Source of the DNA: a virus
Reading direction: 5' to 3' (one strand)
DNA: 24,543 nucleotides
IMG/VR virus record: IMGVR_UViG_3300043137_000171
Span: 1-24,543 of that record
Part shown: positions 3,034 to 23,017 of the stretch, in pieces
Numbering within the stretch: the stretch's first letter is position 1
Layout: each line of letters opens with the position of its first letter
The notes under the pieces: model-generated
Databases searched by the model: none
The model's input: the letters and a program-made list of their open reading frames with translations, nothing else
Told to the model about the DNA's origin: nothing
Translations under genes and position numbers: made by a program

Positions 3034-3238
3034 TTTTCTTGCCAATTTTGTTTACAATTTCAGCCTTGCTTTGTAGCAGTTGGGCACGAAATCTACGATA
3101 TACTCGCAATGAAGCAATGCTTAGTGGATCTCGCTTGTCCTCTAGCTCTGCTATCTTAGCATCTAGTTCAGCTTCTTTTGCACGATGGCGTTCGACATCG
3201 GCTGCAAGGCCTCTTGCTTTTCTCCAAAAGTATGCCAT
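3026..3238 (-). CDS. Small charged coiled-coil protein (70 aa)
   Basis: A 70-residue protein, almost entirely alpha-helical in appearance, with a heptad-like stretch (DVERHRAKEAELDAKIAELE) at about 14-33 and a strongly basic C-terminus. The ATG at 3238 has an excellent AAGGAGA 5 nt upstream, which fixes the start; the same frame is open much further upstream but lacks a signal there. It lies between a 63-aa gene (10-nt gap) and the RNA ligase (8-bp overlap). Function unknown. Confidence 0.78.
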   Translation of the reverse strand: MAYFWRKARGLAADVERHRAKEAELDAKIAELEDKRDPLSIASLRVYRRFRAQLLQSKAEIVNKIGKKNV

Positions 3239-3490: not shown

Positions 3491-3535
3491 CCAATTTTAT
3501 GTTGTATTTTAGCAACAAACAGGTAGAAATTGACT

Positions 3536-3564
3536 ATAAAATGAAAGCACCCGAAGGTGCTTTC
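3536..3564 (-). terminator. Rho-independent terminator of the tmRNA gene
   Basis: A 9-bp perfect stem GAAAGCACC/GGTGCTTTC closed by a TTCG tetraloop (exceptionally stable UUCG type in RNA), followed on the minus strand by ATTTTAT. It closes the tmRNA transcription unit about 40 nt past the tag stop codon. Confidence 0.88.
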
Positions 3565-3605
3565 TTGAGTTTCTGTTACGAGGTATGTCTTACCCTAAGC
3601 TGAGT

Positions 3606-3638
3606 TTAGGCAGCTAATGCGAACTGTGAGTCGTTTGC
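3606..3638 (-). other. tmRNA proteolysis-tag reading frame
   Basis: Ten codons plus TAA encode ANDSQFALAA, with GCA (3638-3636) as resume codon, as in E. coli tmRNA (ANDENYALAA). The first three tag residues and the hydrophobic LAA end are conserved; terminal LAA is what ClpX recognises in the known tags. A-rich sequence precedes the resume codon, as usual. Confidence 0.93.
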
Positions 3639-3747
3639 GTTTACTTTGTTTTGCTTCTGCGACCAGGTTACCCCAATCCTAACGGCTTCTACATTGCCGA
3701 GCGATAGATAACATACTTAATACCCAATCGATAACCAGTTCAGGCCC

Positions 3748-3822
3748 ATCATAGATACATTGTTGGACGGTCTCTAGGACAGCATTCATCCTTACGGACT
3801 ATATTATTCCCCAATGTATCTA
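3748..3822 (-). other. Intervening segment removed from the pre-tmRNA
   Basis: The 75 nt between the encoded CCA and the coding-piece 5' end. A perfect 12-bp inverted repeat (ATAGATACATTG 3823-3812, CAATGTATCTAT 3762-3751) stacks on the acceptor stem: A3826-U3748 and C3824-G3750 can also pair, with one C-A mismatch, giving a nearly continuous helix. RNase P and 3' exonucleases of the host would be expected to remove it. Confidence 0.85.
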
Positions 3823-3891
3823 TGGTGGACCTGCCCGGATTTGAACCGGGTTCTTGAATATTTTTCAGTTCCTACTTTACGCTGTTCAAGT

Positions 3892-3924
3892 ATTTATTAT
3901 ATACTTGTTTTTCCTGCTTGTCAA
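3892..3924 (-). promoter_or_regulatory. tmRNA promoter, sigma70 with overlapping late-type element
   Basis: Minus-strand TTGACA (3924-3919), 17-bp spacer and TATAAT (3901-3896): a perfect sigma70 match. The -35 box overlaps the smpB stop codon. The -10 box overlaps AATAAATA (3899-3892), 7 of 8 bases of the T4 late promoter TATAAATA. Either would start the RNA near 3889, just before the acceptor piece. Confidence 0.85.
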
Positions 3925-4346
3925 GCTAATTTTTGACTTTTTACAATCCTGCGTGTTTCATTTTCAATATCACGCTTCTTGTCAACTTCCCGCTTGTCGT
4001 ATTCTTTCTTACCACGAGCAAGGCCAATCAATAACTTGAACTTGCCCTTCTTGTGATACATTTTCAGCGGAACCAGTGTTAAACCTTTTTCCTGCGTTTT
4101 GCCAATCAGCCGATTGATTTCTTTACGATGCAGCAATAGCTTTCGTGTACGCTGTTGCTCATTGTCTGATGAGCCGACACTGGCACCAACAAGGAACACA
4201 TCGCTGTTGAATACTTTACAATGTGAGCCTACAATAGAGCAAGTCTTGTTGGCAATGGCCTTGACTTCCCACGATTCCAGCACGATGCCACACTCGTAGT
4301 CTTCCAGGATTTCATAATCGTAACGGGCTTTTTTATTTTCGAACAT
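3921..4346 (-). CDS. smpB: SsrA-binding protein SmpB
   Basis: A 141-aa SmpB, the protein partner that delivers alanyl-tmRNA to stalled ribosomes. Conserved blocks are clear: NKKARYDYEI at 4-13, GIVLESWEVKAI at 20-31, FLVGAS at 51-56, RTRKLLLHRKEI at 66-77, GLTLVPLKMY at 88-97, and LIGLARGKKEYDKRE at 106-120. The last block leads into the charged C-terminal tail that enters the mRNA channel in known structures. The protein lacks the ~16-residue N-terminal extension of E. coli SmpB; otherwise the length is normal. The ATG at 4346 is only 5 nt past a -10 box, so the mRNA is probably leaderless. The gene stands directly upstream of the permuted tmRNA, making a complete trans-translation module. 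Nothing looks degraded. Confidence 0.96.
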   Translation of the reverse strand: MFENKKARYDYEILEDYECGIVLESWEVKAIANKTCSIVGSHCKVFNSDVFLVGASVGSSDNEQQRTRKLLLHRKEINRLIGKTQEKGLTLVPLKMYHKKGKFKLLIGLARGKKEYDKREVDKKRDIENETRRIVKSQKLA

Positions 4347-6708: not shown

Positions 6709-7401
6709 TTATGCCCACTTTAGGTCGGCTGGTAAGTTTGCGCCACTGCGGCCGCCACCGTTTTGATACGGAGCCTTTCCGTTTCTTGTTACAAGTACTG
6801 CTACGCTGGCAGGTGATTTACCACCGTAGGAAATGTGTACCCAACGTCCTTCGAAAATAACTTGGCTAAATGGTAGACCGGACTTACCAATCCACTTGAA
6901 TAAATTCTTAGCGTTCTCAACTGCATCACCATTTAGCAATTGAATATCTGCGGCACATGCAAAAGTATGATCGCTTGTATTACTTCCGCCAATACTTGCA
7001 TTATATGCCGGTGAACGATAGCCTGATGAAAGTGTTATCGGGAATCCTGCATCGCGGATTGGATCTAGGATATTTTTACATAGCTTTTGCCAATTGCAAG
7101 CAATTTGTGCTGCCGACTGTCCGCCGTTTGGAGCTGGCTTGTATTTCATGTGTGCAAATTTATAGTATTTGCTGCATGCTGTGTCCCACATTGCATCTGT
7201 ATATGTTGAGCAATCTGTTGTATCTGGTGGCAGCGGTTCTTCACCTGGAGGTTGAGTTGCTTCTCCAACATCTCCGCCACCTTGGGTAGTGCGCTGATCT
7301 TCGGCCGCTGCTGCATGCCCTTCGGCATTGTCTTCGTAATAGACAATGCCGCTAGGTGTTATTTTTCGTCCGCCATTTTTTGTTGGTTTTACACTGCACA
7401 T
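6709..7401 (-). CDS. M15-family peptidoglycan peptidase, tail-associated
   Basis: A 230-aa zinc peptidase of the M15 (D,D/L,D-peptidase, hedgehog-like) family. The fold is visible from residue ~80: SSGYRSPAYNASIGGSNTSD at 125-144, then H145-x6-D152 (HTFACAAD) and the terminal W187-x-H189 (GRWVHI), giving the zinc ligands H145, D152 and H189. The first ~75 residues form a low-complexity Gly/Pro/Asp-rich segment, likely a linker to another virion part. The enzyme would cut peptidoglycan cross-links either at entry (like the gp5 lysozyme of the T4 hub) or at lysis. It stands between a PAAR tip gene and a large putative tail gene, which favours entry. The ribosome-binding site GGGAG lies inside a long hairpin (7404-7439). 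C-terminal residues after ~195 are Gly-rich. Confidence 0.88.
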   Translation of the reverse strand: MCSVKPTKNGGRKITPSGIVYYEDNAEGHAAAAEDQRTTQGGGDVGEATQPPGEEPLPPDTTDCSTYTDAMWDTACSKYYKFAHMKYKPAPNGGQSAAQIACNWQKLCKNILDPIRDAGFPITLSSGYRSPAYNASIGGSNTSDHTFACAADIQLLNGDAVENAKNLFKWIGKSGLPFSQVIFEGRWVHISYGGKSPASVAVLVTRNGKAPYQNGGGRSGANLPADLKWA

Positions 7402-7440: not shown

Positions 7441-7713
7441 TTATGGACCTACATAAACGTTTGGGCTACCATCTGCCCTGGAATCCCCGCATGTGTCAGC
7501 ATCGCCTTGCCTGTTTACAGGAATTCCGCCAATAAAAACAGTGCCGCTACCGTTTGCAGTAGTTGGGCTACTGTGCTCACCTAGACCATGGTCAGAAACT
7601 GTACTACCGTCAATGCTTGCCAATTGTCCATTGACATATACTGTGCCCTGAGGGATTCCTTCAATGGTACCTCCGCCATCATTGGCATCACCTTGACGAT
7701 GTACAGCTGGCAT
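7441..7713 (-). CDS. PAAR-repeat tail-spike tip protein
   Basis: A 90-aa protein composed of PAAR-type repeats: it begins MPAVHRQGDANDGG and ends with GIPVNRQGDADTCGDSRADG followed by SPNVYVGP, with Gly/Ser-rich strands between. PAAR proteins form a sharpened, metal-tipped cone on the tail spike (T4 gp5.4 has 97 aa) and on type VI secretion spikes. His, Cys and Asp residues suitable for metal binding are present (H5, C79). Its ATG overlaps the Sm-like gene stop as TAATG, so the two are translationally coupled. The position before the M15 peptidase suggests both belong to the membrane-piercing tip. Confidence 0.92.
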   Translation of the reverse strand: MPAVHRQGDANDGGGTIEGIPQGTVYVNGQLASIDGSTVSDHGLGEHSSPTTANGSGTVFIGGIPVNRQGDADTCGDSRADGSPNVYVGP

Positions 7714-11773: not shown

Positions 11774-12220
11774 TTATACTTTAACTAGGCTAGCGAGGTC
11801 GCTAGCCGCCCATGTTTGCAAAATTTGCAAGTCTAAAGTTTTCATGTCAACTGCCTCACCATCATAATAATTTAACACTGTTCCATCTGCTAGAAGTACT
11901 AAAAGTTTGGGAGATTGGTCAACGATTGCCAAAATTAGTTGACAATCAATTCCACTTAGAATAAGACTATAAAACATTCCCAGTCCTTGCGCACTAGGGC
12001 AAAAGGAGCCGCTGCCAATTAGTTCCCATGGGTTTGGCCAAGTTTCCACTCTCCAAGGGTCAAATGTTTTGTTTACTAGCGGAACAAACTTCCACCACCT
12101 GGCAGCTTCGTTAAGAGCAGCCACAGTATCCAGTGTAGACAACTGTGTTCTCCATTCGCGCCAGGCCAGTAACTTTCCTTGTTTGTCAAGAAACCAATGT
12201 TCTAAATTATGTTTTTCCAC
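11774..12220 (-). CDS. Conserved phage protein (148 aa), function unknown
   Basis: A protein of 148 aa from a GTG at 12220, which lies 8 nt after the nuclease stop codon; a GTG at 12268 in the same frame would give 164 aa with a 40-bp overlap. It is rich in Trp (AWREWRTQL, AARWWKFVPL, WRVETWPNPWELI) and has a hydrophobic centre (GLGMFYSLILSGI). The pattern recalls a conserved protein of marine T4-like phages with no assigned function. It follows the nuclease gene and precedes nrdA, so a nucleic-acid or nucleotide role is possible but not shown. Confidence 0.72.
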   Translation of the reverse strand: MEKHNLEHWFLDKQGKLLAWREWRTQLSTLDTVAALNEAARWWKFVPLVNKTFDPWRVETWPNPWELIGSGSFCPSAQGLGMFYSLILSGIDCQLILAIVDQSPKLLVLLADGTVLNYYDGEAVDMKTLDLQILQTWAASDLASLVKV

Positions 12221-12228
12221 GCAGATAC

Positions 12229-12900
12229 TTATACCAACTTGTAATACTGTTCTACTCGTTGCAACCACAAGTCAGTGTATCGGTCAAATTCAGCACCTTC
12301 GATTGTAAACGTTTCATAGTTGTTTTCGCGGTCTACCATGAACAATGCACCAAATTTAATATCAGTCCCATGTACTTCATTGTGTGCTAATGCGTAGGCT
12401 GTGGTCTGAATAAAGTAATCCTGCATCCACTCGGGCTTCTTCATCTTCTTGGCAGTCTTATGATCCATGATGGCCGGGATGCCTTTATAGCAACCTACCA
12501 AGTCAGTAGTGCCTGCGTATAAGCCTGGATAGTATAAGCTGGCTTCCATCCCCCATACCTCAGTTACATCAGGCAAGCCTTTAGTGATAACTTGATCACT
12601 CATTGCTCTGGCCATAACATGCACTGGTGTGCTACCAGGAGGACGTTCTATGCCTTCGATAAAATTCTCAATGTGTTTATGAACAAGTGTTCCAAGTCCA
12701 GCTGATTCTGTTGAAATACGAGTAGCTTCGGCTTCGCCTACTCGTTTTCGCCATTCCAGTAAACCTGTTTTGTCCGCAGTGGCAGATAGAATTGTGGTTA
12801 CACTCGGGACTTTTGATCCGTCGGGTGTAGCGTATAGCCGCTTTGGGCCTTCGATCCTATTCAGGGTTTCGTATTTGTATTTGGGGTTAAAAATTATCAT
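12229..12900 (-). CDS. PD-(D/E)XK nuclease, RecB/Cas4-like
   Basis: A 223-aa exonuclease-type protein. Motifs: YATPDGSKVPSVTTIL at 23-38, a substrate-domain helix with H74 (GTLVHKHIE), D133 (GTTDLVG), the catalytic D146-H-K148 (IMDHKTA) and Q165-x3-Y169 (QTTAY). This set matches the RecB/Cas4/lambda-exonuclease-like superfamily, which degrades DNA ends for recombination or recycles host DNA. There is no Cas4-type cysteine cluster. The ATG at 12900 is only 8 nt past a perfect -10 box, and no Shine-Dalgarno is present, so the mRNA is probably leaderless. A palindrome covers the -10, suggesting repression. Confidence 0.88.
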   Translation of the reverse strand: MIIFNPKYKYETLNRIEGPKRLYATPDGSKVPSVTTILSATADKTGLLEWRKRVGEAEATRISTESAGLGTLVHKHIENFIEGIERPPGSTPVHVMARAMSDQVITKGLPDVTEVWGMEASLYYPGLYAGTTDLVGCYKGIPAIMDHKTAKKMKKPEWMQDYFIQTTAYALAHNEVHGTDIKFGALFMVDRENNYETFTIEGAEFDRYTDLWLQRVEQYYKLV

Positions 12901-12902
12901 TG

Positions 12903-12947
12903 TCGTTTATTATAAACGATAATGATGATAAAGTCAAAGACTTTATC
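12903..12947 (-). promoter_or_regulatory. Nuclease-gene promoter with two inverted repeats
   Basis: Minus-strand TTGACT (12937-12932), 17-bp spacer, TATAAT (12914-12909). A 7-bp-arm palindrome (TCGTTTA 12903-12909, TAAACGA 12913-12919) is centred on the -10. A 9-bp-arm hairpin (GATAAAGTC 12927-12935, GACTTTATC 12939-12947) covers the -35 and directly follows the upstream stop codon. They could be operators, or the second a terminator stem. Confidence 0.78.
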
Positions 12948-13295
12948 TTACCATGCAATGACCCACTGGAAAGTGGTTTGCGTATTTGGGTTTGACTGAC
13001 GATCAATTGTGTATCCAAGATCAGAGAAATATTGGACTACTTTATTCATCTGTAAAGTTTTCTGTCTGTCGTCGCGTGAACCAGTCCATGCATCATAATA
13101 TTCAGCAGCGATACCATATCCAACATCGGCTGCATTTTTTGCCATTGTAGATGTGGTAGGAACAATTACTTCAATTGCACCGTCGGCTGCTGCGGTCAAC
13201 ACTGCTTCTTCCAAGTCACGTATTTCACGCAAAACATAAACATCTTGCAATGACTTGATTCGGGCTTCAGAAGCCGTTAACATTACTCTACTCAT
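12948..13295 (-). CDS. Conserved phage protein, probable virion component (115 aa)
   Basis: A 115-aa protein starting MSRVMLTASEARIKSLQDVY, with helical N-terminal half (LREIRDLEEAVLTAAADG) and a C-terminal part rich in Thr, Gln and aromatic residues ending in QWVIAW. I recall similar short proteins next to virion genes of T4-like marine phages, but no function. The ATG overlaps the previous stop as ATGA. Last gene of the 14252-12948 group, followed by a 9-bp hairpin. Confidence 0.8.
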   Translation of the reverse strand: MSRVMLTASEARIKSLQDVYVLREIRDLEEAVLTAAADGAIEVIVPTTSTMAKNAADVGYGIAAEYYDAWTGSRDDRQKTLQMNKVVQYFSDLGYTIDRQSNPNTQTTFQWVIAW

Positions 13296-13633
13296 ATTCC
13301 TAGATCCTTACGTGCTTGACTGATTGCATCTTTGCTAACTTTTACTTTATTCTGAGCTGCTTGTTCTTCTGTGTCAGCAGTTGGCACAGTTGTTAAAATA
13401 ACTTCATTGTTATTCACATCCGACACAAGGTCGTTGTTCTTAACTTTGAACGAAGCAACAAGTCCGCGGATAGCATCAACTTGACCAGTTGCACTGTACC
13501 CCATGTTATTGAGTTTTTGAACAAGTTCTTGCATAGGAATTTTTGCCAATCCGTCAGATTGACCTTTAATGATCAACATCTTAACAGCGTTGGCAAAATT
13601 CTTATCGAAACTTGCTAGTTCACTCAATATCAC
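13292..13633 (-). CDS. Small helical phage protein (113 aa)
   Basis: A 113-aa protein from a GTG at 13633 with GGGAG 7 nt upstream; it overlaps the previous gene by 14 bp. The N-terminus is helical (ELASFDKNFANAVKMLIIKG), the middle has a helix-turn-helix-like pattern (MQELVQKLNNMGYSATGQVD), and the C-terminus is charged. The HTH resemblance is weak. It is co-translated with two putative virion genes, so a structural or assembly role is the simplest reading. No family recognised. Confidence 0.78.
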   Translation of the reverse strand: MILSELASFDKNFANAVKMLIIKGQSDGLAKIPMQELVQKLNNMGYSATGQVDAIRGLVASFKVKNNDLVSDVNNNEVILTTVPTADTEEQAAQNKVKVSKDAISQARKDLGI

Positions 13634-14252
13634 TCTTCATCTCCCTGCCAGTGGCTTCGCCTTCTGGACCAGCACTGCTTGGAAATATAGGAGCAGCTGG
13701 CTCTTCTGCTGCGGCTGCGGCATCAAGACCAACAGGTTGACCGCCAGTTGTCAAGCTAGTGATAGCAGAGTCAAGTGTATTCTTGGTATCCATTAAGGAA
13801 GTGATAGCAGTATCTAGTGCAGTCTTAACAGTTTGTGCATACTGTTCACCTGCTGCATCACCAAAGCGTTCTTTGATCTGATCAACCAATGTAATCATAT
13901 CGCTACCTAACATGTCAGCAACATCCTCAATCATTCCTTGGAATTCATGATTCATTGCTTTGGCAGCAATGACTACTTCGGCTTGTTCAATGTCAGCATC
14001 ATCAAGCTCGCCTTCAAACAGCACAGCATCAACATTGGCCATATCTTCATAAATTTCTTTATAAAGGATAGCACGAGTATACGCTTGGCCGCCTTTGCTT
14101 GCCAGTGTGTCAATTTCTTCATGTACACGAGTCAACTCGTTTCGTAGACGTCTTCCGCCAAGGCTTTCGTCAACTACAATACTTTCTTTACGTAATGCAG
14201 ATCGAGCAGCTTGAGCAGGCGTGTTTGTGATTGTAATTTCATTAAATTTCAT
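13620..14252 (-). CDS. Acidic phage protein, probable virion/assembly role (210 aa)
   Basis: A 210-aa acidic protein with a long helical body (residues ~35-165) and an Ala/Glu/Pro-rich tail (GLDAAAAAEEPAAPIFPSSA). The helical, acidic, tail-flexible layout is seen in scaffold- and virion-associated proteins, but no specific motif is present. The ATG at 14252 has GGAGA 5 nt upstream and a GCTAAATA late-type promoter at 14277-14270, so it begins a late transcription unit with the next two genes. Confidence 0.8.
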   Translation of the reverse strand: MKFNEITITNTPAQAARSALRKESIVVDESLGGRRLRNELTRVHEEIDTLASKGGQAYTRAILYKEIYEDMANVDAVLFEGELDDADIEQAEVVIAAKAMNHEFQGMIEDVADMLGSDMITLVDQIKERFGDAAGEQYAQTVKTALDTAITSLMDTKNTLDSAITSLTTGGQPVGLDAAAAAEEPAAPIFPSSAGPEGEATGREMKSDIE

Positions 14253-14269
14253 AATGTTCTCCAGTGATC

Positions 14270-14277
14270 TATTTAGC
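14270..14277 (-). promoter_or_regulatory. Late-type promoter GCTAAATA
   Basis: Minus-strand GCTAAATA (14277-14270) overlapping the stop codon of the basic protein, 17 nt before the ATG at 14252. It resembles the T4 late promoter TATAAATA at 6 of 8 positions and matches four other intergenic copies in this window exactly. Confidence 0.65.
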
Positions 14278-14539
14278 GTCTTTTTTTGTTTAACTTAGTC
14301 ACTCGTTTGCTCATTGGGTTAAATTTCTTTGTTCTTTTAATTTTCATGGCAATTCTACCACGCATCTTAGCTTTGGTACGCTTGAACTGTAAACGCTTTT
14401 TAATATCTATTTTTTTACTGCAACTACTAGCAGCACTGACAACTCGTCCACGCTTACGGCCAGACGTACAGCGCACTTTGCGCTTGATCTTTTTGCCGCT
14501 GCGAGCCCATACAAGTTTAGCTTCTACTAGTATTTTCAT
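14273..14539 (-). CDS. Very basic small protein, probable DNA-binding head protein
   Basis: An 88-aa protein with about 40% Lys plus Arg, starting MKILVEAKLVWARSGKKIKR and ending TKLNKKRR. Two cysteines lie at 24 and 40. The composition suggests binding to nucleic acid, such as an internal head or condensing protein. Proteins of this kind recur in marine T4-like phages without experimental function, as far as I recall. No Shine-Dalgarno is visible; the ATG is 3 nt after the previous stop. The gene sits in the late structural block. Confidence 0.8.
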   Translation of the reverse strand: MKILVEAKLVWARSGKKIKRKVRCTSGRKRGRVVSAASSCSKKIDIKKRLQFKRTKAKMRGRIAMKIKRTKKFNPMSKRVTKLNKKRR

Positions 14540-14542
14540 TTG

Positions 14543-14827
14543 TTATTTTGGTAAGTGTGTGACAACATACCCTAGTAATGCTAGCAAACCTACAATTATG
14601 GTTGCAGTAGAAGTCACCATAATTTTGAACTTTTCGTCCTTGGCTCCTGCTAGCATATTCTTAATCTCGCTCATGTTTTTCTGATTGTCTTGCTTAAAAT
14701 TATTAAACTCATCATGAAGCTGATCTAAACGATTCTCCACCGTTTTAAATTTTTCTTCTAAGCGGCCATATCGCTCAGCACACAATTCAACGTGCATTTC
14801 TAGGCTTGTATTTTCTGCAATTGCCAT
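14543..14827 (-). CDS. Coiled-coil protein with C-terminal membrane anchor (XhlA-like)
   Basis: A 94-aa protein: an N-terminal helical domain with a coiled coil (about 20-60; GRLEEKFKTVENRLDQLHDE) and one strongly hydrophobic segment at about 70-90 (MVTSTATIIVGLLALLGYVV) near the C-terminus. This is the arrangement of haemolysin XhlA-type phage proteins that assist holins. A role at the host membrane in lysis is inferred only from architecture. It is preceded by an unusually long leader of about 95 nt downstream of a GCTAAATA promoter. Confidence 0.8.
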   Translation of the reverse strand: MAIAENTSLEMHVELCAERYGRLEEKFKTVENRLDQLHDEFNNFKQDNQKNMSEIKNMLAGAKDEKFKIMVTSTATIIVGLLALLGYVVTHLPK

Positions 14828-14940
14828 TACTTATATCCATGTCTAAAGCACACGCTGTTTCTTACTGCGATGCGGATTTTATTTTATGATGAGCCTAGAG
14901 TGAGTTAAAACGTATTTTTGTAGTTGCTGTATTTAGCAAA
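14828..14940 (-). promoter_or_regulatory. Intergenic leader with GCTAAATA late-type promoter
   Basis: GCTAAATA at 14937-14930 (minus strand), inside TTGCTAAATACAGCAA, a 5-bp-arm inverted repeat. The predicted RNA would carry a leader of about 95 nt before the ATG at 14827, far longer than elsewhere here. No tRNA or long hairpin is seen in it. Confidence 0.6.
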
Positions 14941-15351
14941 TTAGAAAGAATCGTGTAGTATGAAAAACGTATTAGTGTCTGGACCAGTTGTAATAATTTG
15001 TCCTGGCAGTTCTACTGTTTCTGAAAGACCTGTTGTCATGTACTGACCGTTGGCTTCGTTTGTCAGGGTTTCTTCTGTCATTTGACCAATTCCACTTGCA
15101 ATCCATTTTAAACACCAAACACGTTGCTTGCCGCTAAAATTTTCTCCAAATAATTCAGTTCCTAGGTCTTGACTTTCTATGCACTCAACTCCAGCCAACA
15201 GCGGCTGGCCGCGATTTGCAATAACACTCATTAGCACTGCCAAGTTTTCACGGCCAGCAGGACTAATGTCATACAATGTCCAAGCTGAAAAGAATTCTGG
15301 ATCAGCGCCCAGATGCGCACCAGGGATCATATAGGACTTTTTATCAGACAT
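14941..15351 (-). CDS. Hypothetical late-block protein (136 aa)
   Basis: A 136-aa protein beginning MSDKKSYMIPGAHLGADPEF, mildly acidic, with no membrane segment or recognised motif; two cysteines (around 57 and 80). The ATG at 15351 overlaps the preceding stop as TAATG and has AAGGAA upstream, so it is translationally coupled. Neighbours are putative virion proteins; a structural role is inferred from context alone. Confidence 0.8.
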   Translation of the reverse strand: MSDKKSYMIPGAHLGADPEFFSAWTLYDISPAGRENLAVLMSVIANRGQPLLAGVECIESQDLGTELFGENFSGKQRVWCLKWIASGIGQMTEETLTNEANGQYMTTGLSETVELPGQIITTGPDTNTFFILHDSF

Positions 15352-16100
15352 TATAGATTCCTTCCAATTGCATACCCAACTGCAAATCCGCCAGCAGCTT
15401 TGGCCAACCCAGACATAAAACCGTTACCTGTTCTAGATCCAGTAACTGCACCTGCGCCAATGGCTGCAAGTTCTGCATTGCCGACGTCAGTTAGTTCCAT
15501 ATTTTTATTCTTAGCAAGTGTTTCAAGCACTGGAAGCAATTCGCTATGGCGGCCACGCAATCTATAATATTGTAATAAACGTGTCACACATAATTGACGT
15601 TGCATTGTTGTTATATTTTCCCAGTCTGTGATTAAACGACGAAGGCTCTTGTAATTGCTAATGTCAATGCCCATTTGTCCTTCTAGTCGATACATAATGC
15701 GAATAGCAGTAGTACGATCAAGTGCTCCGTTGGCAATGCCTCGTAGGAATTCTTTGACCAATTTGGTGTTGGTGTGCAATTGTGATGCCAACGCAGAATT
15801 TTGTTCTGGTGCTTTGAGCTGTGAAGCAGTATGTCCATTGGGATAAAGCATAATATGCAGGCCTTGGTACAAGTCTGTTCCGCCAACTCTGGGAGCAGCA
15901 AAGTTTCCAAATGCCATTGTTCTATTGGCGTATTCTTGTGCAAACGGTCGAGTTTCAAACTCTTTGCTTAACATGTACAATGTAATCATGTTAAGGAATA
16001 CGCTGTCAACTGTGTCTCGTAAGGTCAACTGGCTAAGATAGTTATTACGAAACATCTTGCTTTCGTTGCAATTTTCTCGAATAAAGCTAAAATCGTCCAT
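15351..16100 (-). CDS. Probable virion protein with glycine-rich hydrophobic C-terminus
   Basis: A 249-aa protein: a helical N-terminal domain with many Leu and Arg (residues 1-200) and a final Gly/Ala-rich segment (AELAAIGAGAVTGSRTGNGF and GLAKAAGGFAVGYAIGRNL) that could insert into a membrane or pack in a capsid. GAGGAA precedes the ATG at 16100 by 7 nt. It seems to belong to a conserved set of marine T4-like late genes, but I do not know its function. No enzyme motif seen. Confidence 0.8.
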   Translation of the reverse strand: MDDFSFIRENCNESKMFRNNYLSQLTLRDTVDSVFLNMITLYMLSKEFETRPFAQEYANRTMAFGNFAAPRVGGTDLYQGLHIMLYPNGHTASQLKAPEQNSALASQLHTNTKLVKEFLRGIANGALDRTTAIRIMYRLEGQMGIDISNYKSLRRLITDWENITTMQRQLCVTRLLQYYRLRGRHSELLPVLETLAKNKNMELTDVGNAELAAIGAGAVTGSRTGNGFMSGLAKAAGGFAVGYAIGRNL

Positions 16101-17252
16101 TTAGAATTTCCTCATGAATACAGGTCGGTTAACAATCTTAATCTTACCGTGTGGAGTGTCGGCAACAAACCCTTCGTGGCCAGGTTCATCCCTAACAGAT
16201 GCTACTACAGCAGCATCTTGGCTGGCATGTACATCTAGCTGATGTTTGAGTGCATATTTCAAGTTGACCAATGCATTTGCAATTTTAAATACTGCACTGA
16301 AACCTGTTTTGTTTTTGTTAATGTGATCCAATACGTTTTGAAGTTTATTGGCTGTTAGTTTACTATCAGGGCTTTGCAACCAAGTTAGGAACTCAGTTGT
16401 GGTTGGCGCATGTTCTCCGCGATATGCCTTAAAGTTCAAGAAACTTTTAAAAATGTCTGGCAAATTGGAAATCTTCAATGCACCCATTGCCATTGGATTA
16501 AGCAACTTGTCTACTAGGCTTGCATTTTTTGAAATTAAATTGCGCACTGATTGCACATCATCTTCTACTAGATCAAATGAAGGAATACTTTCAACTTGCA
16601 TTACCGGACTCAATACTACAAGACCCGGACTTGGCTTTAGAGTAGAAATTTCTGCAGGAGTCATTGCTCTTGGCTCATCTTCCTCTTTGCTGGCAAAGTA
16701 ACTATGTACAACAATACCTGCTTTGCTAGCTTTAATTTTCTTGCCTAGATCACTTGATGCATCAATTGTATACTTTACTTTCAATGGTTGAATTTCAATT
16801 ACACCATCATGTGCCACTGGCTGATTCATCCACATGATGTCGCCTTGAATAAATCCACGGAACTTAACTGGGACAATTTTTTCAAGCATAGGGTATAGTT
16901 TTGCAATCTGTGTTGCATATTCCATACGTGTGGGTTCGTCAGGCTTACGATTGAAAATCATATCCTGGAACATTTTCTGATTACGAGCCATACCGTCGTA
17001 CTTTTTGGCACCAAAGCCAGCTTTGTCTGTTAAGATAAAACCTTGTTCGTCACGACCGAAAATAATAGCAGGAGTACCGTCCCACTTGACTGTGTTGACA
17101 CTTGGATTTTGGGCAGCATGAGCAATAGCTTCCAGTGCTCGTAACGCTCCTGCAGAACCTTCTTCAAATGCCAAGTCTTCGGGATGGTCAATCCGAGCCT
17201 TTGCTTCGGATAACATTGGCTTATTGTATTTTGTTATTTCAAATATTTTCAT
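16101..17252 (-). CDS. Covalent-nucleotidyltransferase-like protein (ligase fold)
   Basis: A 383-aa protein with ligase-superfamily motifs in order: motif I K56-W-D-G59 (VKWDGTPAIIF), a motif III-like strand at 131-141 (FRGFIQGDIMW, with Gln-Gly-Asp where ligases have Glu), a IIIa-like strand at 179-186 (GIVVHSYF), motif IV at 359-363 (HEGFV) and motif V lysines K370 and K372 (GKIKIVNR). The motif III-IV distance (~180 aa) is much longer than in typical ligases, with a helical insert. It may correspond to a phage DUF of the DUF6267 type; I could not verify this. Sealing, capping or adenylylating activity is possible. It overlaps the previous gene as ATGA and lies among late genes rather than replication genes. 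Confidence 0.8.
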   Translation of the reverse strand: MKIFEITKYNKPMLSEAKARIDHPEDLAFEEGSAGALRALEAIAHAAQNPSVNTVKWDGTPAIIFGRDEQGFILTDKAGFGAKKYDGMARNQKMFQDMIFNRKPDEPTRMEYATQIAKLYPMLEKIVPVKFRGFIQGDIMWMNQPVAHDGVIEIQPLKVKYTIDASSDLGKKIKASKAGIVVHSYFASKEEDEPRAMTPAEISTLKPSPGLVVLSPVMQVESIPSFDLVEDDVQSVRNLISKNASLVDKLLNPMAMGALKISNLPDIFKSFLNFKAYRGEHAPTTTEFLTWLQSPDSKLTANKLQNVLDHINKNKTGFSAVFKIANALVNLKYALKHQLDVHASQDAAVVASVRDEPGHEGFVADTPHGKIKIVNRPVFMRKF

Positions 17253-18427
17253 TTTTCTGTCCCATTGACTGCCGCCATAATTCTATCATACAACGGGTCG
17301 TTTGGTTTAATTTCTTGGTTACCAATCTTAACTACTTCAGGCTGACCTGCAGGCGCAATTGGCTTGCCAGCTGGTGCTGTAGGGGTGCCTGTTGGCTCAG
17401 CAGCTGGGGCAGGACTTCCTGTAAGTTTCATATTATCAACTAAACGCATAGAATCAGCACCCCATGGTTCAACATAAAGATGAGCACTTTCAGTTGCTGG
17501 GCGACCGCCTTCTGTTTCTTTAACAGCAATTTCTAACCAAGCTTTGAATTGAGCTTGAATTGCCGGAGTCGCTTGTTGTATTAACTGATTGACAACTGCT
17601 GGGTCAACATTACTAGCATGACTTGATAGTGCCGACTTAAACACCGACGGCAATACCAATGCAGGAGGATTTGCAAGTAGGCCTTGCAACTTTGCATTAT
17701 CAAGCACTGCATATTTCTGTTGAATAGACTTGACCATTTGGATAATTAGCCAATGCAAGTTATCTTTGAAATCCTCATTTGGTTGTAGCGCACGGATTGC
17801 CGGTGATGTTGGATCAAACAGCAGTTCTTTGACCTGCTCACCAGCAGCTTCAAAATTTTGTAAGTCTGTAGGATCAATTTCAAAGTCACCTAAGTCTTCT
17901 TTGGTTGTTTTAATGTAAATGATTGTACCAGCCACAATCAAAGAAATAGTATGGATGCTGTCGCTTAGTGAGTTTCGTAAACGCACACTAGGAGAACGCA
18001 TTACCACAGCTTGAAATACTGATTTAACAGTTGCATCAGCAGCATCGTCGCTGACCAACAACATTTTTAAAATGTCTTCTTTGTTGGTAGCAATTGCAGA
18101 TTGAATTTCAGCAGGGGTTACAATGATATTTTCTTTCTTGGCCATTGCGCTGCCGATCAGCTCTGCTTGTTTCAAGATCATCCCCACTGGGGTTGGTGCA
18201 GAACCATCATCAATGCCTTGGGCCTGATTACCAAGTCGTTCTGTTACCTTAGGGGTAGTTGCATTTGCAATAACATCAGCAAATCTATTCAAAGCAGCGT
18301 CTTGACCACGCAGGGCTCGAAGTACACCAGTTGGGCCGTCACCGCCAGCCATGTTTTGCACTTTGGCAATAAAATTGTCAATAAATCCTTCTTCTAATTT
18401 AGGACGTTTTAAATCGTTTACTTTCAT
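17249..18427 (-). CDS. Unknown late-block protein with Pro/Ala-rich linker (392 aa)
   Basis: A 392-aa protein. Residues ~1-330 are largely helical, with one hydrophobic stretch (ISLIVAGTIIYI, ~161-172); ~335-370 is a Pro/Ala/Gly/Thr linker (SPAPAAEPTGTPTAPAGKPI); the last ~25 form a short conserved-looking tail (VVKIGNQEIKPNDPLYDRIM). The AAGGAA ribosome-binding site fits the ATG at 18427. It overlaps both neighbours by ATGA, forming a coupled pair with the nucleotidyltransferase-like protein, so the two products may act together. No family recognised. Confidence 0.8.
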   Translation of the reverse strand: MKVNDLKRPKLEEGFIDNFIAKVQNMAGGDGPTGVLRALRGQDAALNRFADVIANATTPKVTERLGNQAQGIDDGSAPTPVGMILKQAELIGSAMAKKENIIVTPAEIQSAIATNKEDILKMLLVSDDAADATVKSVFQAVVMRSPSVRLRNSLSDSIHTISLIVAGTIIYIKTTKEDLGDFEIDPTDLQNFEAAGEQVKELLFDPTSPAIRALQPNEDFKDNLHWLIIQMVKSIQQKYAVLDNAKLQGLLANPPALVLPSVFKSALSSHASNVDPAVVNQLIQQATPAIQAQFKAWLEIAVKETEGGRPATESAHLYVEPWGADSMRLVDNMKLTGSPAPAAEPTGTPTAPAGKPIAPAGQPEVVKIGNQEIKPNDPLYDRIMAAVNGTEK

Positions 18428-18675
18428 TGTTCGCTTTCCTTAATAGATCGTACGCCACGTGTGAACTTTGAAGGGTCACCGTTCTTGATAGCTAATTGTA
18501 GTCGTCTAGTCAACTCCTCTGCTTGATGCTCTGGATAATTTTGTTGAATAACTTCCATTAAGTTAATTACACGGGCAATGGCCTGCACTGCCAGTCCTTC
18601 TACGTGCAAGTGTTTATCTTGCTTGGGGACTAAGCCTGTAATTTCATCTAAGATACTTCGAGTTTGTTTACGCAT
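18424..18675 (-). CDS. Conserved small phage protein (83 aa)
   Basis: An 83-aa helical protein beginning MRKQTRSILDEITGLVPKQD and ending TRGVRSIKESEQ. It resembles a small protein family seen in T4-like marine phages, always without function. The ATG at 18675 has no Shine-Dalgarno and lies 8 nt after a GCTAAATA late-type promoter, implying a nearly leaderless late message. First gene of the late block. Confidence 0.8.
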   Translation of the reverse strand: MRKQTRSILDEITGLVPKQDKHLHVEGLAVQAIARVINLMEVIQQNYPEHQAEELTRRLQLAIKNGDPSKFTRGVRSIKESEQ

Positions 18676-18683
18676 GATTAATA

Positions 18684-18697
18684 TATTTAGCTAAATA
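18684..18697. promoter_or_regulatory. Divergent late-type promoter palindrome
   Basis: The perfect 14-bp palindrome TATTTAGCTAAATA contains GCTAAATA on both strands (plus 18690-18697, minus 18691-18684). It lies between the divergent genes starting at 18675 (minus) and 18719 (plus), so one element could fire both ways. The plus-strand message would keep an AGGAG site; the minus-strand message would be nearly leaderless. Confidence 0.7.
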
Positions 18698-18718
18698 ATG
18701 TTTATAGGAGATTGTAAA

Positions 18719-19144
18719 ATGCAATTATCACCAGGTGCGCAACAATTGAGAGACTTAGCAAATAAGATCTCTCGTTTAAATGAGTACGATACTCACACAG
18801 ATACCGGAGAACCGGACCATGAAATTGATACCAGTGAACTTAGCCGTTTAAAAATGGCATTGGGTCCACTGGTAAGTGACGAATTGCAAAGTCGTTTTAT
18901 GCAGACATTGAACAAAATGGCAAGTGGACAGCCTATTACTTTCGCCGAGTCAAAGCTTATTACTTCTGCTTTTGTTAGTATGGCAGATATTATTGCAAGC
19001 GACAGCTCATTGATCAGCAGAATGCGCAAAGATATCCGTGACTTTAATGTTGGGCATGACACCGAGCAAGCCGATGCAGAAGCTGATCTAGCAGCTGATA
19101 TCATGCCAAATGTTGAGTTAGAAGATCCATACCAACCTAAGTAA
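18719..19144 (+). CDS. Hypothetical plus-strand phage protein (141 aa)
   Basis: A 141-aa acidic, helical protein starting MQLSPGAQQLRDLANKISRL, with no cysteine and no membrane segment; the C-terminus is strongly acidic (EQADAEADLAADIMPNVELE). The ATG at 18719 is chosen for AGGAG 8 nt upstream; a start at 18698 is less likely. It points against all neighbours, and its stop codon lies directly against that of the helicase gene (TAATTA). It seems to be driven by the plus arm of the palindromic late promoter. Function unknown. Confidence 0.8.
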   Translation: MQLSPGAQQLRDLANKISRLNEYDTHTDTGEPDHEIDTSELSRLKMALGPLVSDELQSRFMQTLNKMASGQPITFAESKLITSAFVSMADIIASDSSLISRMRKDIRDFNVGHDTEQADAEADLAADIMPNVELEDPYQPK

Positions 19145-20626
19145 TTAAATTTCTCGGCTCACAATAGCCCTTAATGCGTTTCGATTAGCACTAGTTGCAA
19201 CTGGAACAGTTAAGGGCTTTTTCTCCACTGGAAGTTGGCCGCTGTCGGCGTCAGTTGCCCACGGAGCAGACATTACGTCAAGTGGACCAGCTGCTGTTTT
19301 ATTTGTATCTACACTGGTTCCTCCAATGTTGCTTGTACGCTGAATTTTGTTATAAACATCACTTGCTCTACTAGAGCTAGGACTGCTGTCACCTTCCATG
19401 TCGCTGATACGTAGTGTGTCTGGATTAAAGCTTAAATCAATCTTTTGTCCAACTGCACTACTGGAACGTGTCTTCATAAACTGTAGCTGTACCATACAAC
19501 GTTCACGCATGGTAGGAGTACTGAAAATACCAAACACGTTGTCAGCTGTTTGAATCTTACTCAATCCACCAGCAATCATACTGTGATCAAACTCTACACT
19601 TTCCACAGCACTACGGTTCAACTGAGAAGCTGTTGCCAACAACATTTGTTCACTGACAACTAAGTTACGCAACTCCTCGGCAACAAGTTTGTCTTTGACA
19701 AACATATCACTAACGCTAATCTTTTGAGCGGCTGGCATCATCAAGTCCAAGTAGTCAACCAAGATAGCATCTACTTTGATCTTGCGCTGTGTTTGGAATT
19801 CTCGCACCCATGACAAGATGTCATTGGCTGTAATACCGTTTGTCAACTGTACAATTTGCAGAACACCAGCTTTCTTGCCTGCAATACGTACCTTAAGGTC
19901 AACATCTTCAAGTCGCTTAAACACATCACGAGTGGGAGTGTCAGACAGCATAGCGTCCATACGCATTGCACACAGGCCTTCACTCAACTCAAGACTAAAG
20001 TAAACAGTGTTCAGTCCAGACTTGGCCCAATTTAAACCTAAGTTTTGCAAGAACAAACTCTTACCTGCGCCTGACGCACCTGCAAAAATGTTTAGTTCGC
20101 CTCTGTTAAATCCTCCGTACAATTTGTCGTCCAGCGTCTTCCAACCTGTACTCAACTGTCCGTTGTTGTCTTTGAGTGCATTTAGTCGAGCTGCTGGATC
20201 AGCAAAGTAATCTGTACCAAAGGTTTTTGGCAAGCCGACTTGAACAGCATCCTTGATTAGCTTTTCAACTGCACCGTACTCATTCTTGTCAAGCATGTCA
20301 GCACTTTGAAGGATGGCCTTCTCTAACGCCTTATGTCTGGCAAAGCCTTCAAACTCAGTTAGAAACCAAGCACTATGTTCTTCTGCCTGAGCTTGCAAGT
20401 TTGACAAGTCTGTGTTTGTTGTTGCTTTGACTTGTACAATATCTGGAATATTGCCATGCTCGCTGACATACGTCTTGATAAATTCTGCTGCACCTCTTAA
20501 CCTACGGTCAAAATGTTCTGGGTCCAACACGTTCTGGCATCGTGCGGCCAAATCCCTATTGCTAATCATAAAGTCCAGAAATAGTTTCTGGAGCTCGTAT
20601 CCGTATTCTTTTACTTCATTTGCCAT
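19145..20626 (-). CDS. Replicative DNA helicase, DnaB/T4 gp41 type
   Basis: A 493-aa hexameric helicase that unwinds the fork ahead of the phage polymerase and pairs with the primase encoded upstream. Residues 1-130 form the N-terminal helical domain; the RecA-like motor has Walker A G183-x4-GKS190 (GASGAGKS), a switch segment YFSLELSEG at 209-217, Walker B around 287-294 (DAILVDYLDLM) and a Q-loop (LLATASQLNR). The C-terminal ~80 residues are Ser/Thr/Pro-rich and probably disordered. The ATG at 20626 overlaps the previous stop as TAATG, with GGGGGA upstream; a TTG five codons earlier is the alternative. The assignment to gp41 rests on fold and on the adjacent gp61-type primase. Confidence 0.95.
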   Translation of the reverse strand: MANEVKEYGYELQKLFLDFMISNRDLAARCQNVLDPEHFDRRLRGAAEFIKTYVSEHGNIPDIVQVKATTNTDLSNLQAQAEEHSAWFLTEFEGFARHKALEKAILQSADMLDKNEYGAVEKLIKDAVQVGLPKTFGTDYFADPAARLNALKDNNGQLSTGWKTLDDKLYGGFNRGELNIFAGASGAGKSLFLQNLGLNWAKSGLNTVYFSLELSEGLCAMRMDAMLSDTPTRDVFKRLEDVDLKVRIAGKKAGVLQIVQLTNGITANDILSWVREFQTQRKIKVDAILVDYLDLMMPAAQKISVSDMFVKDKLVAEELRNLVVSEQMLLATASQLNRSAVESVEFDHSMIAGGLSKIQTADNVFGIFSTPTMRERCMVQLQFMKTRSSSAVGQKIDLSFNPDTLRISDMEGDSSPSSSRASDVYNKIQRTSNIGGTSVDTNKTAAGPLDVMSAPWATDADSGQLPVEKKPLTVPVATSANRNALRAIVSREI

Positions 20627-20829
20627 TAATTGTTCCCCCAACGCAAGGCCATTATGGCAGCGTCTTGTTTATCTTTAAAATCAAAAATCATGTAATCTTC
20701 CGTCGGTCTTGTTATAAACTTATTACCTGGTAATCCAAATTCTTCTATTGCCCAGGCACAGATTTCATTCCACCATTCATCTGTGTTCTGACCTAACCGC
20801 CAGGATACTTTTATTCTATGGTTAAACAC
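20626..20829 (-). CDS. Small conserved phage protein between primase and helicase
   Basis: A 67-aa protein from a GTG at 20829, overlapping the primase gene by 8 bp. It has many aromatics (WWNEICAWAIEEFGLPG then TEDYMIFDFKDKQDA), a compact alpha-beta pattern. The motif recalls a small family common in marine T4-like phages. Being translationally bound between primase and helicase genes suggests a replisome role, but this is context only. Confidence 0.8.
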   Translation of the reverse strand: MFNHRIKVSWRLGQNTDEWWNEICAWAIEEFGLPGNKFITRPTEDYMIFDFKDKQDAAIMALRWGNN

Positions 20830-21787
20830 ACCACCGCCTTGCTATTAATTTAATCTTCAGTGGACTAGTCTCAATCGCCGATATTACACTTTGTAATGTG
20901 GCAGCTCTTCCAAATTTTTGAGCAGCTTGGTTTGCATCTTTAATTTCAGATGGCCATTCAGGGAAACTTACGCTCCATCCCAACTCAGCTGCTTGCAATG
21001 CCAACCTTAAGCCGGCAGCATCTTTATCCGGAAGTACCACAGGCTCGTTATCAATGTCTTCGATTATCTTTGCTTGTTCAGGACTAATTTCATTTGTCAT
21101 AATAGCAACACCGTCAAGAGATAATGCATCGTACTCTCCTTCTGTAACTATTGTGTATTTTCTATGGCTGCTTTGATGTTCAAGATTAAACACATAGCTA
21201 TGCGGCCTGCTTGCAATCATTTTTGCAGTTTTCTTATCTGGTACATCGCCAATCCAGCGGGCGCTGTAACCTATTAAGCGACCACTATCAGTGTAAGGAA
21301 GAATAACACGATTGTCCATTCCTTGAATCGGGCTTGCACTTGTGTACCAGTCTGTTAGCTCTAGTACACCTCTACTGTCAAGGTATTCGGCTGCTTCTAG
21401 TGTTAACTCTCGAACAGTCCATGGCCACTGTATCTCTGGCCAGTCGGGTTTCTTGAATGGTTCTTCAATGAATGCATCATCAACAACTACCTGATCCCAT
21501 AGCTGAATCTTTAAGCGTTGAATTTCGCCTTCGTCAACTCCCAGCACACGCATTAACTTAATCAGCTTGATACCAAGCTTTTGGCCGGGGCGCCAACCTG
21601 TAGTGTAACCACAGTTGAAGCAATGGTAACCAATTCGATCTTGTTCAAATTTTAGGCCGCCTCGGCGCTTGGAATCTGGTCGATGTCCATTTTGAACGCA
21701 CATAGGGCAGTTCATGGTCAACCAACCATTGGATGTTGTTTTTAATGTAGGCAGGTGGGCCCGAAGCGTATTCTCAACTAAACTCAT
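20822..21787 (-). CDS. DNA primase, T4 gp61 type
   Basis: A 321-aa primase that makes RNA primers for lagging-strand synthesis. The N-terminal zinc-binding domain has C27-x2-C30 (CPMC) and C56-x2-C59 (CFNC). A TOPRIM catalytic domain follows with VTEGEYDALS (214-223; E218 or its neighbour binds metal) and a DKDAAG element at 254-259 (LPDKDAAGLRLAL). No helicase domain is fused: the helicase is encoded separately. The ATG at 21787 is 11 nt after the previous stop, with no Shine-Dalgarno. Together with 20626-19145 it gives the T4-like two-gene primosome. Confidence 0.93.
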   Translation of the reverse strand: MSLVENTLRAHLPTLKTTSNGWLTMNCPMCVQNGHRPDSKRRGGLKFEQDRIGYHCFNCGYTTGWRPGQKLGIKLIKLMRVLGVDEGEIQRLKIQLWDQVVVDDAFIEEPFKKPDWPEIQWPWTVRELTLEAAEYLDSRGVLELTDWYTSASPIQGMDNRVILPYTDSGRLIGYSARWIGDVPDKKTAKMIASRPHSYVFNLEHQSSHRKYTIVTEGEYDALSLDGVAIMTNEISPEQAKIIEDIDNEPVVLPDKDAAGLRLALQAAELGWSVSFPEWPSEIKDANQAAQKFGRAATLQSVISAIETSPLKIKLIARRWCV

Positions 21788-21798
21788 ATAGAGCTAGT

Positions 21799-22596
21799 TT
21801 ATACTCTTATAAGAACTTTGTCAAGTGTGCCGGCGTTCGAAGCAGCGTCGGTTTTAACTATTCGGAGCCAGCGTACACCGGCATAATAGTTGTATGGGTC
21901 AATGCCAGTGAAACCCCTTAGGTCAAGGTTTGAAACTGCATAGTCCTGTGGCTTTAGGTTTGCCCATAACGTGTCACCTGTGACCACTTCGTCCATTGTG
22001 CCTTGGACAACAATAGTTCCTGTCCAATTGGTTGCATAAACACCAACAGTGAACAAACTTGTATCTTTTCTAAAGTACTGCGGACCATTAAATGCACTAG
22101 ATATCATGATACCATCTGAATTAGTAAATGATGTTACTTCTTCTGTGCTACGACTTGTTGGTACTACTGCATCCTTTACTTCAACATCGAATGCACCTTG
22201 CATTGCTCTATTCCAAGTTAGTGCAGTTTCTAAACCTTCGGCATTGATGAATGTGGCGCCAAGCGCATAGATTCCGTTGCTCAGCGTCATTAAGTCTCGA
22301 GCAAATACCACTATCTGCGCTTGGCCATTTTCAGCAACAATGGGCCTAGCTCTACGTCGGAAAATTGTTGCACCAGTTTCCCTATTCCACATTGTGATAG
22401 TGATTTCCCTGCGTAATAAACTAACAGGGCGACGATCGCTACCAGTGATGGTTAGATCTAACAGATTGTCAACACCTTTAAACCAAACAATACGCTGATC
22501 AGTGTAGGATGGTGCATGTCTAGTAGTACTAGGACCTGTGCCCGCACCGGCATAGTTTAATGTTGCTGTTGGAATGCTTGAATTGAGTGTCGCCAT
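21799..22596 (-). CDS. Probable virion structural protein (265 aa)
   Basis: A 265-aa beta-rich protein starting MATLNSSIPTATLNYAGAGT, Ser/Thr/Gly/Asn-rich, with few Lys and no cysteine. The sequence looks like a tail, fibre or neck component (ANGIYALG-like strands, YNYYAGVRWLRI near the end) but no specific family is certain. I chose the ATG at 22596 since it lies right after the GCTAAATA element; the frame extends upstream to 22728, opposite to a plus-strand gene. It stands alone between primase genes and the polymerase-like fragment, as a late island among early genes. Confidence 0.82.
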   Translation of the reverse strand: MATLNSSIPTATLNYAGAGTGPSTTRHAPSYTDQRIVWFKGVDNLLDLTITGSDRRPVSLLRREITITMWNRETGATIFRRRARPIVAENGQAQIVVFARDLMTLSNGIYALGATFINAEGLETALTWNRAMQGAFDVEVKDAVVPTSRSTEEVTSFTNSDGIMISSAFNGPQYFRKDTSLFTVGVYATNWTGTIVVQGTMDEVVTGDTLWANLKPQDYAVSNLDLRGFTGIDPYNYYAGVRWLRIVKTDAASNAGTLDKVLIRV

Positions 22597-22601
22597 AGCA
22601 T

Positions 22602-22609
22602 TATTTAGC
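22602..22609 (-). promoter_or_regulatory. Late-type promoter GCTAAATA
   Basis: Minus-strand GCTAAATA (22609-22602), 5 nt before the ATG at 22596. A T4-type late start would fall at the ATG itself, giving a leaderless mRNA. The element is identical to four other copies in this window. Confidence 0.65.
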
Positions 22610-22642
22610 TGACCAAGCTTTTTTAAAATGCTAAGTACTTCG

Positions 22643-23017
22643 ATGGATAATAAAGTCAAAGAATTTCTAGAAAGATTCCCGTTTATGAGCTTGGTACGAT
22701 ACGGTGACCAAGAACTCGTAGGTATCATTCAAAATAGTGATCAAACAGTTGTCACTATGTACGTCTACAACTTGCTAAAAGACGAAGCGGATAAAACATC
22801 GTTTATTGAGTGCGGGGAAGAATGGTGGTGGGGTTCAAATCGAATAATCCCAATTAACATTGTTTTAAAAGCTCCAATGCGACAGTTTACCTATGCATTG
22901 AAAACTTATTCTACCAAAGATTTTGAAGTACTACACGGGTACCAAACTAGCTTAACTAATGTAATTACTAAACGTACAAAGAGACGTCAAATTAGTTTAG
23001 TTAGGAAGATGACCTAA
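22643..23017 (+). CDS. Conserved plus-strand phage protein (124 aa)
   Basis: A 124-aa protein starting MDNKVKEFLERFPFMSLVRY, beta-rich (LVGIIQNSDQTVVTMYVYNL) with a W-rich segment (EEWWWGSNRIIPINIVLK) and a very basic C-terminus. I recall close relatives in T4-like cyanophages, none with a function. The ATG at 22643 fits them better than the in-frame ATG at 22628; neither has a Shine-Dalgarno. Its last 17 bp overlap the convergent 3' end of the polymerase-like gene. Confidence 0.8.
   Translation: MDNKVKEFLERFPFMSLVRYGDQELVGIIQNSDQTVVTMYVYNLLKDEADKTSFIECGEEWWWGSNRIIPINIVLKAPMRQFTYALKTYSTKDFEVLHGYQTSLTNVITKRTKRRQISLVRKMT

Follow-up and report, generated by a model that had tools for sequence, protein, structure and literature searches.

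The gene at positions 16101-17252 (-) of the window, by which we mean the whole 24,543-nucleotide stretch of viral DNA that we analysed (IMG/VR record IMGVR_UViG_3300043137_000171), encodes a 383 amino acid protein of the Pfam family DUF6267 with an invariant active site of the polynucleotide ligase type and a leader resembling those of T4 internal proteins. On balance we lean towards reading it as a ligase-type enzyme that is packaged in the virion, injected into the host and acts on nucleic acid ends, its substrate being a prediction. DUF6267 is present in hundreds of phage records, abundant marine T4-like phages included, and has no assigned function. A ligase assignment would give a concrete answer to a stated gap, namely T4-like cyanophages and subgroup 2.1 jumbo phages in which no DNA ligase is recognised. 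While the DUF6267 family is already catalogued, the leader and the linkage of three enzymes described below appear to be new.

DUF6267 is a widespread phage protein family

The 383 amino acid protein matches Pfam DUF6267 (PF19782) over its full length (E 2.4e-32, profile positions 4-368 of 376), scoring 113.2 bits against a curated cut-off of 27. The family, which corresponds to phrog_455, is found in T4-like marine phages and jumbo phages, and the window's protein shares its invariant residues and belongs to the same phage groups. Direct tblastn identified relatives in 83 phage records, and a cyanophage query raised this to 471, while a scan of IMG/VR returned at least 561 stretches carrying DUF6267 relatives. 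Given the PF19782 match and these IMG/VR relatives, a chance ORF is excluded by sequence comparison. No DUF6267 was found in T4. The literature searched contains no mention of the family name, and the PF19782 record assigns no function and holds neither the ligase assignment nor the leader or the enzyme linkage.

The start codon of the DUF6267 gene overlaps the stop codon of an upstream 392 amino acid ORF as ATGA, in keeping with the translational locking described in an earlier reading made from the sequence alone (the sequence-only reading). The ATG of the gene downstream abuts the DUF6267 stop codon. The gene, its motifs and its neighbors are as follows (↓, cleavage site).

12948-14252 (-): three ORFs, orthologues of PA5oct EST35_0237, 0238 and 0239 (phmmer E 4e-15, 3e-4 and 4e-18; ESI-MS/MS notes)
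14273-14539 (-): 88-aa highly basic protein, leader MKILVE↓A, candidate packaged DNA-binding protein (from sequence)
15351-16100 (-): 249-aa protein directly downstream of DUF6267 (family so placed in 45 loci)
16101-17252 (-): predicted DUF6267 ligase-type nucleotidyltransferase, 383 aa (PF19782 E 2.4e-32; AF2 pLDDT 91)
16125-16145 (-): motif V, KIKIVNR (K372, R376 invariant 43/43 with a residue there; K370 variable)
16164-16178 (-): motif IV, HEGFV (E360, G361 invariant 43/43 with a residue there)
16221-16565 (-): helical insert, residues 230-344, between motifs IIIa and IV (DSSP on AF2 model)
16695-16718 (-): motif IIIa, GIVVHSYF (H183 invariant 44/44)
16830-16856 (-): motif III, GFIQGDIMW, Asp138 in place of Glu (D invariant 44/44)
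17076-17087 (-): motif I, K56-W-D-G, predicted AMP-lysine (K, D, G invariant 44/44)
17205-17252 (-): N-terminal leader, residues 1-16, MKIFEITKYNKPMLSE, predicted prohead-protease cut after E16, LSE↓A (pLDDT <50; [LIM]xE statistic; T4 leaders)
17249-18427 (-): 392-aa partner, ATGA overlap, leader MKVNDLKRPKLEE↓G (upstream neighbor in 18 loci, window's clade)
18424-18675 (-): small virion structural protein, leader MRKQTRSILDE (phrog_11854 E 1.8e-17)

Conserved motifs and a predicted structure point to a ligase-type fold

The motifs follow one another in ligase order: KWDG (K56), GFIQGDIMW (133-141), GIVVHSYF (179-186), HEGFV (359-363) and KIKIVNR (370-376). About 172 residues lie between motifs IIIa and IV, and residues 230-344 of these form predicted helices in the AlphaFold (AF2) model. 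The translated ORF and the model thus contain what the sequence-only reading had described, including a helical insert that it put at about 170 residues. The order of KxDG, a hydrophobic-acidic motif III, IIIa, EG in motif IV and K in motif V, like the order of strands and helices, is common to DUF6267 and to polynucleotide ligases and covalent nucleotidyltransferases such as T4 gp30, Rnl1, Rnl2 and archaeal DNA ligases.

Both the model and the conservation count are based on an alignment of 44 DUF6267 sequences, all divergent relatives. K56, D58, G59, D138 and H183 are invariant (44/44), as are E360, G361, K372 and R376 in the 43 of 43 sequences with a residue at that position; K370, the first Lys of the KxK motif V, is not conserved. 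The motif III residue is acidic but is Asp in all 44 sequences, whereas classical members carry Glu. The sequence-only reading was therefore right that motif III is altered, but the Asp is a family-wide trait and no defect of this copy. A degenerate-ligase reading of this copy was rejected, the active site being invariant across the family. We propose that the window's DUF6267 protein is a ligase-type nucleotidyltransferase core, lysine-adenylating and catalytically intact, which carries a helical insert and lacks an OB domain.

The nucleotide-binding active site is invariant as a whole, which speaks for catalysis and bears on an alternative according to which DUF6267 is a virion assembly factor using a ligase fold, as in the Rnl1 family named a tail-fiber attachment catalyst. 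This alternative draws on the location of the gene in a late, virion-type block and on the phrog_562 annotation of the Rnl1 family, but the absence of DUF6267 from T4 and the existence of leaderless DUF6267 forms in replication blocks also speak against it, and we consider it highly improbable. The window itself carries an Rnl1-type ligase at 2125-3045 (-), rightly recognized as Rnl1-like in the sequence-only reading (PF09511, E 2e-11; phrog_562), which has many close IMG/VR relatives.

The model is confident (pLDDT 91, pTM 0.86), with pLDDT below 50 only at residues 1-17. In a PDB fold search with the full model, the top five matches are all ligases (E from 0.04), archaeal ATP-dependent DNA ligases and a Naegleria RNA ligase being the best. 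When the N-terminal domain was searched by itself, DNA ligases took all nine of the highest ranks (E from 0.009), and modeling this domain without the insert improved the ligase ranks with E still not below 0.001. A fold unrelated to nucleotidyltransferases, which the sequence-only reading had named, together with a K56 that is not adenylylated, as grounds for abandoning it, is not what this comparison returned, the best neighbors being ligases at E of 0.009 or above. Because no fold match passes E 0.001 (TM-scores are 0.2-0.35), the fold assignment rests on several agreeing lines, namely the model, the conservation and a sequence bridge.

This bridge runs through two jumbo phage proteins. The DUF6267 profile matches EST35_0228 of phage PA5oct (E 0.0016), and in the reciprocal search with PA5oct 0228 the Atu_ph07 RNA ligase is followed in rank by DUF6267 proteins only (E of 0.016 or more). 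PA5oct 0228 and the Atu_ph07 RNA ligase match each other at E 4e-8 in both directions, and the latter matches PF09414 RNA_ligase (E 0.002). The link between DUF6267 and the Rnl families suggested by these searches is only indirect, through PA5oct 0228 and Atu_ph07. Neither the protein itself nor the 44-row profile gave a significant match when PDB sequences were searched, and no Rnl1 (PF09511) or Rnl2 (PF09414) match is among the Pfam families listed for the 44 members; two DUF6267 members show weak PNKP_ligase matches (E 0.011), the only Pfam ligase matches. HH profile comparison with Rnl1, Rnl2 and gp30 gave no signal and counts neither way, since alignments this shallow failed to connect even Rnl1 and Rnl2, the positive control. 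Taken together, the invariant motifs, the confident model with ligases as its best PDB neighbors and the bridging homologues make a ligase-type fold and active site, as the sequence-only reading had proposed, very probable.

DUF6267 differs from these ligases in the motif III Asp, in the 115-residue helical insert before motif IV and in its C-terminus. The protein stops 7 residues past motif V, so that a C-terminal OB domain with motif VI is absent from both sequence and model. Without an OB domain, DUF6267 is neither a classical DNA ligase nor a capping enzyme.

A T4-type leader predicts cleavage in the prohead

The window's protein begins with an N-terminal leader of the T4 capsid-targeting type that ends in a predicted (I/L)xE cleavage site, a feature that the sequence-only reading had not noticed and that supports its suggestion of virion packaging. 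The first 16 residues are disordered and run into the domain as MKIFEITKYNKPMLSE↓AKARI. T4 IPII and IPIII begin MKTYQEFIAE↓A and T4 gp24 begins MAKINELLRE↓S, while T4 gp23 reads FLTE↓AEIGG at residue 65. Published data (PMC9958956) have 10 residues cut from gp24 and 65 from gp23, which places both cuts exactly after these glutamates. The T4 internal proteins (IPI-III and Alt), which undergo capsid targeting and gp21 cleavage, share with DUF6267 a short N-terminal leader of the form MK-x-(F/Y)-x-E-(F/I/L), and both leader types end in (I/L)xE before a small residue. The two belong to unrelated families, the DUF6267 leader is usually longer (14-25 amino acids), and packaging of DUF6267 is predicted from sequence.

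Among 71 distinct DUF6267 starts, 64 have [LIM]xE within 12 residues before the domain, at distances ranging from 5 to 12 residues, compared with 9.8% when stretches are drawn at random from these proteins. When both M[KR]x1-4[ED][ILFV] and a cleavage site are demanded, 58% of DUF6267 genes qualify, as against 5.4% of the remaining genes in those loci; the sequences behind these percentages are related and are not independent trials, so part of the statistic reflects common ancestry. A 285-kb relative encodes an S77 prohead protease, and in the major capsid protein from a different relative YLTE↓T aligns with the T4 cleavage site. Cyanophage DUF6267 proteins do not carry the leader; those of two cultured phages, Methylophilales phage Melnitz and Pelagibacter phage HTVC008M, do.

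In the window's clade, DUF6267 would be made as a precursor that the 16-residue leader targets into the prohead, where a T4 gp21-like protease would cut the leader off after LSE. The mature enzyme would then be packed with the DNA, enter the host with it and act within minutes on nucleic acid ends. Possible tasks are the sealing of nicks in the incoming genome or the resealing of RNA or tRNA cut by host defenses. More generally, the leader could predict which phage enzymes come pre-loaded in the head and act at time zero.

An internal protein-type leader would also suit an injected enzyme that transfers NMP to host proteins in a role like that of T4 Alt. T4 gpAlt provides the precedent of a packaged enzyme modifying host proteins, and the two other nucleotidyltransferases of the set are probably co-packaged. 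The bridging relatives are RNA-ligase-like, however, and the pairing of the ligase with a Pol-beta-type enzyme resembles RNA ligase-RlaP repair pairs (PMC7824862), making a protein-modifying role rather improbable in our view. That DUF6267 acts on a nucleic acid we judge fairly probable.

The surrounding genes are colinear with a region of phage PA5oct that includes virion genes

Despite low sequence identity, positions 11774-22728 of the window are colinear with the 144-163 kb region of the Pseudomonas jumbo phage PA5oct (MK797984). Orthologues detectable in the window comprise a structural protein, primase, helicase, a small ORF, three structural proteins, exonuclease and 0242. The PA5oct orthologues of 21799-22728, 13620-14252, 13292-13633 and 12948-13295 carry the note 'structural protein, ESI-MS/MS', in keeping with the late, virion-type surroundings described in the sequence-only reading. 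A T4-type late promoter, TATAAATA, was not found in the window, and late expression is consequently read from context alone. The 88 amino acid, very basic protein at 14273-14539 (-), with its leader MKILVE↓A, resembles a packaged DNA-condensing internal protein.

Further virion evidence comes from proteins associated with DUF6267 in related phages. The PA5oct Pol-beta homologue 0231 is a structural protein detected by mass spectrometry (MS). In cyanophage S-SM1, the gene after DUF6267 encodes the T4-GC190 cytidylyltransferase, which begins MKKFSAFLNE↓A and was detected by mass spectrometry in purified S-SM1 virions (PMC3037559). This enzyme of cyanophages thus adjoins DUF6267 and has the same leader type, but as a HIGH-superfamily nucleotidyltransferase it has a different fold. 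The DUF6267-like PA5oct 0228 and the DUF6267 protein of S-SM1, SSM1_189, are annotated 'hypothetical' and not as detected by MS, while neighbors of theirs are. This missing MS record is the main evidence against packaging, and low copy number or the absence of the leader in cyanophages may explain it. Weighing leader and gene context, we consider it likely that DUF6267 is packaged in the window's clade.

DUF6267 is linked to two other nucleotidyltransferases

A Pol-beta-type nucleotidyltransferase (G[ST]xGK...SGDxD...D) lies directly upstream of DUF6267 in 33 loci. Its usual start, M-I-L-K/S/N-E↓GG, is itself an LxE leader, and it has no Pfam match, either within the fused proteins or in the PA5oct copy. 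The enzymes also occur as fusions, with a HIGH-type nucleotidyltransferase as the third partner: HIGH+Pol-beta+DUF6267 (L067, L074, L075), Pol-beta+DUF6267+HIGH (L089, L096), Pol-beta+DUF6267 (L093-L095), DUF6267+Pol-beta (L058-L065) and, in S-PM2, DUF6267+HIGH. Where a fusion continues into DUF6267 or Pol-beta, the domain is in most cases preceded by LxE↓A or LxE↓G, as would be required of a polyprotein that is processed inside the prohead. If true, a prohead-processed nucleotidyltransferase polyprotein would be an unusual delivery format. DUF6267 probably works together with the Pol-beta-type and HIGH-type enzymes of the same phages.

In the window's clade the upstream gene is the 392 amino acid ORF, which has its own conserved LxE↓G leader, and not Pol-beta. 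In the 285-kb relative, both a Pol-beta enzyme, with leader ...IVKE↓GGNVF, and one of the HIGH type are encoded away from DUF6267. Comparison of the 392 amino acid partner with PA5oct 0227 gave nothing significant (E 0.02 in a set of 22 sequences), so the two are linked by position alone. In L004, L005, L025 and L027, DUF6267 lies behind a protein of about 670 amino acids with hydrophobic segments and leader-like LxE sites, to which it is fused, and a free ORF related to this protein lies upstream in L043. The fused protein was considered as the 392 amino acid partner and rejected, the partner being a separate upstream ORF in these loci.

Jumbo phages are known to carry RNA ligase-RlaP repair pairs (PMC7824862), in which a ligase-type enzyme adjoins a Pol-beta nucleotidyltransferase as it does in the 33 DUF6267 loci and the fusions. 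Atu_ph07 has an RNA ligase followed by a Pol-beta-type gene and then a homologue of the window's 249 amino acid gene (E 6e-24). By this analogy, the ligase and Pol-beta pairing would favor an RNA substrate. Compared with these pairs, the DUF6267 set includes a Pol-beta protein that has no Pfam match, carries its own LxE↓GG leader and is detected by MS in PA5oct virions, and it adds a HIGH-type enzyme.

DUF6267 is a candidate for the missing ligase of T4-like phages

Cyanomyoviruses lack gp30, for which an unrecognized distant homologue or the host ligase has been suggested (PMC2984593). Most subgroup 2.1 jumbo phages lack a known DNA ligase but encode a stand-alone ligase-type DNA-binding domain (PMC7824862). 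We found no match to PF01068, PF01653, PF09414 or PF09511 in six complete Kyanoviridae genomes with DUF6267 (S-SM1, S-PM2, P-TIM40, P-HM1, HTVC008M and Melnitz-3), while T4 carries three of the four families. T4 gp30 as a tblastn query matched 2,520 phage records; the ten names that occur most often do not include Synechococcus. The absence of known ligase families from DUF6267-bearing Kyanoviridae, together with the gap noted in the literature, makes DUF6267 a candidate for the ligase that these phages seem to lack. AAX44695.1, the stand-alone DNA-binding domain of ligase type cited in PMC7824862, was considered as DUF6267 itself and rejected, as it lies elsewhere in the P-SSM2 gene order.

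These absences, along with the stand-alone DNA-binding domain of the jumbo phages, would also fit DUF6267 being chiefly an intracellular replication DNA ligase, an unrecognized replacement of T4 gp30 for which packaging is secondary or absent, and so would the cyanophage gene, which carries no leader and lies in a polymerase-UvsX-helicase-primase block. This reading, which we rank second, has to contend with the lack of an OB domain, with the leader and the location among virion genes in the window's clade, and with PA5oct, which encodes a canonical DNA ligase as well as the DUF6267-like 0228; moreover, gp30 is replaceable by a host ligase. We regard it as unlikely. For the packaged enzyme that we prefer, RNA and DNA are about equally plausible substrates. 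A broader version, in which DUF6267 and the Pol-beta-type and HIGH-type enzymes form a kit packed in the capsid, sometimes as one prohead-cut polyprotein, and injected to mend ends before phage gene expression, with DUF6267 as the missing ligase of ligase-less T4-like phages, is put forward tentatively and seems to us rather doubtful as a whole.

Other features of the window

The window also encodes a trans-translation pair, consisting of a permuted tmRNA at 3515-3915 (Rfam tmRNA_permuted, 93 bits; tag ANDSQFALAA) and an adjoining SmpB gene at 3921-4346 (-) (PF01668, E 1.5e-45). A PAAR-motif protein (7441-7713) adjoins an M15 peptidase (6709-7401, (-)), and the two probably have roles at the tail tip and in lysis or entry through the cell wall.
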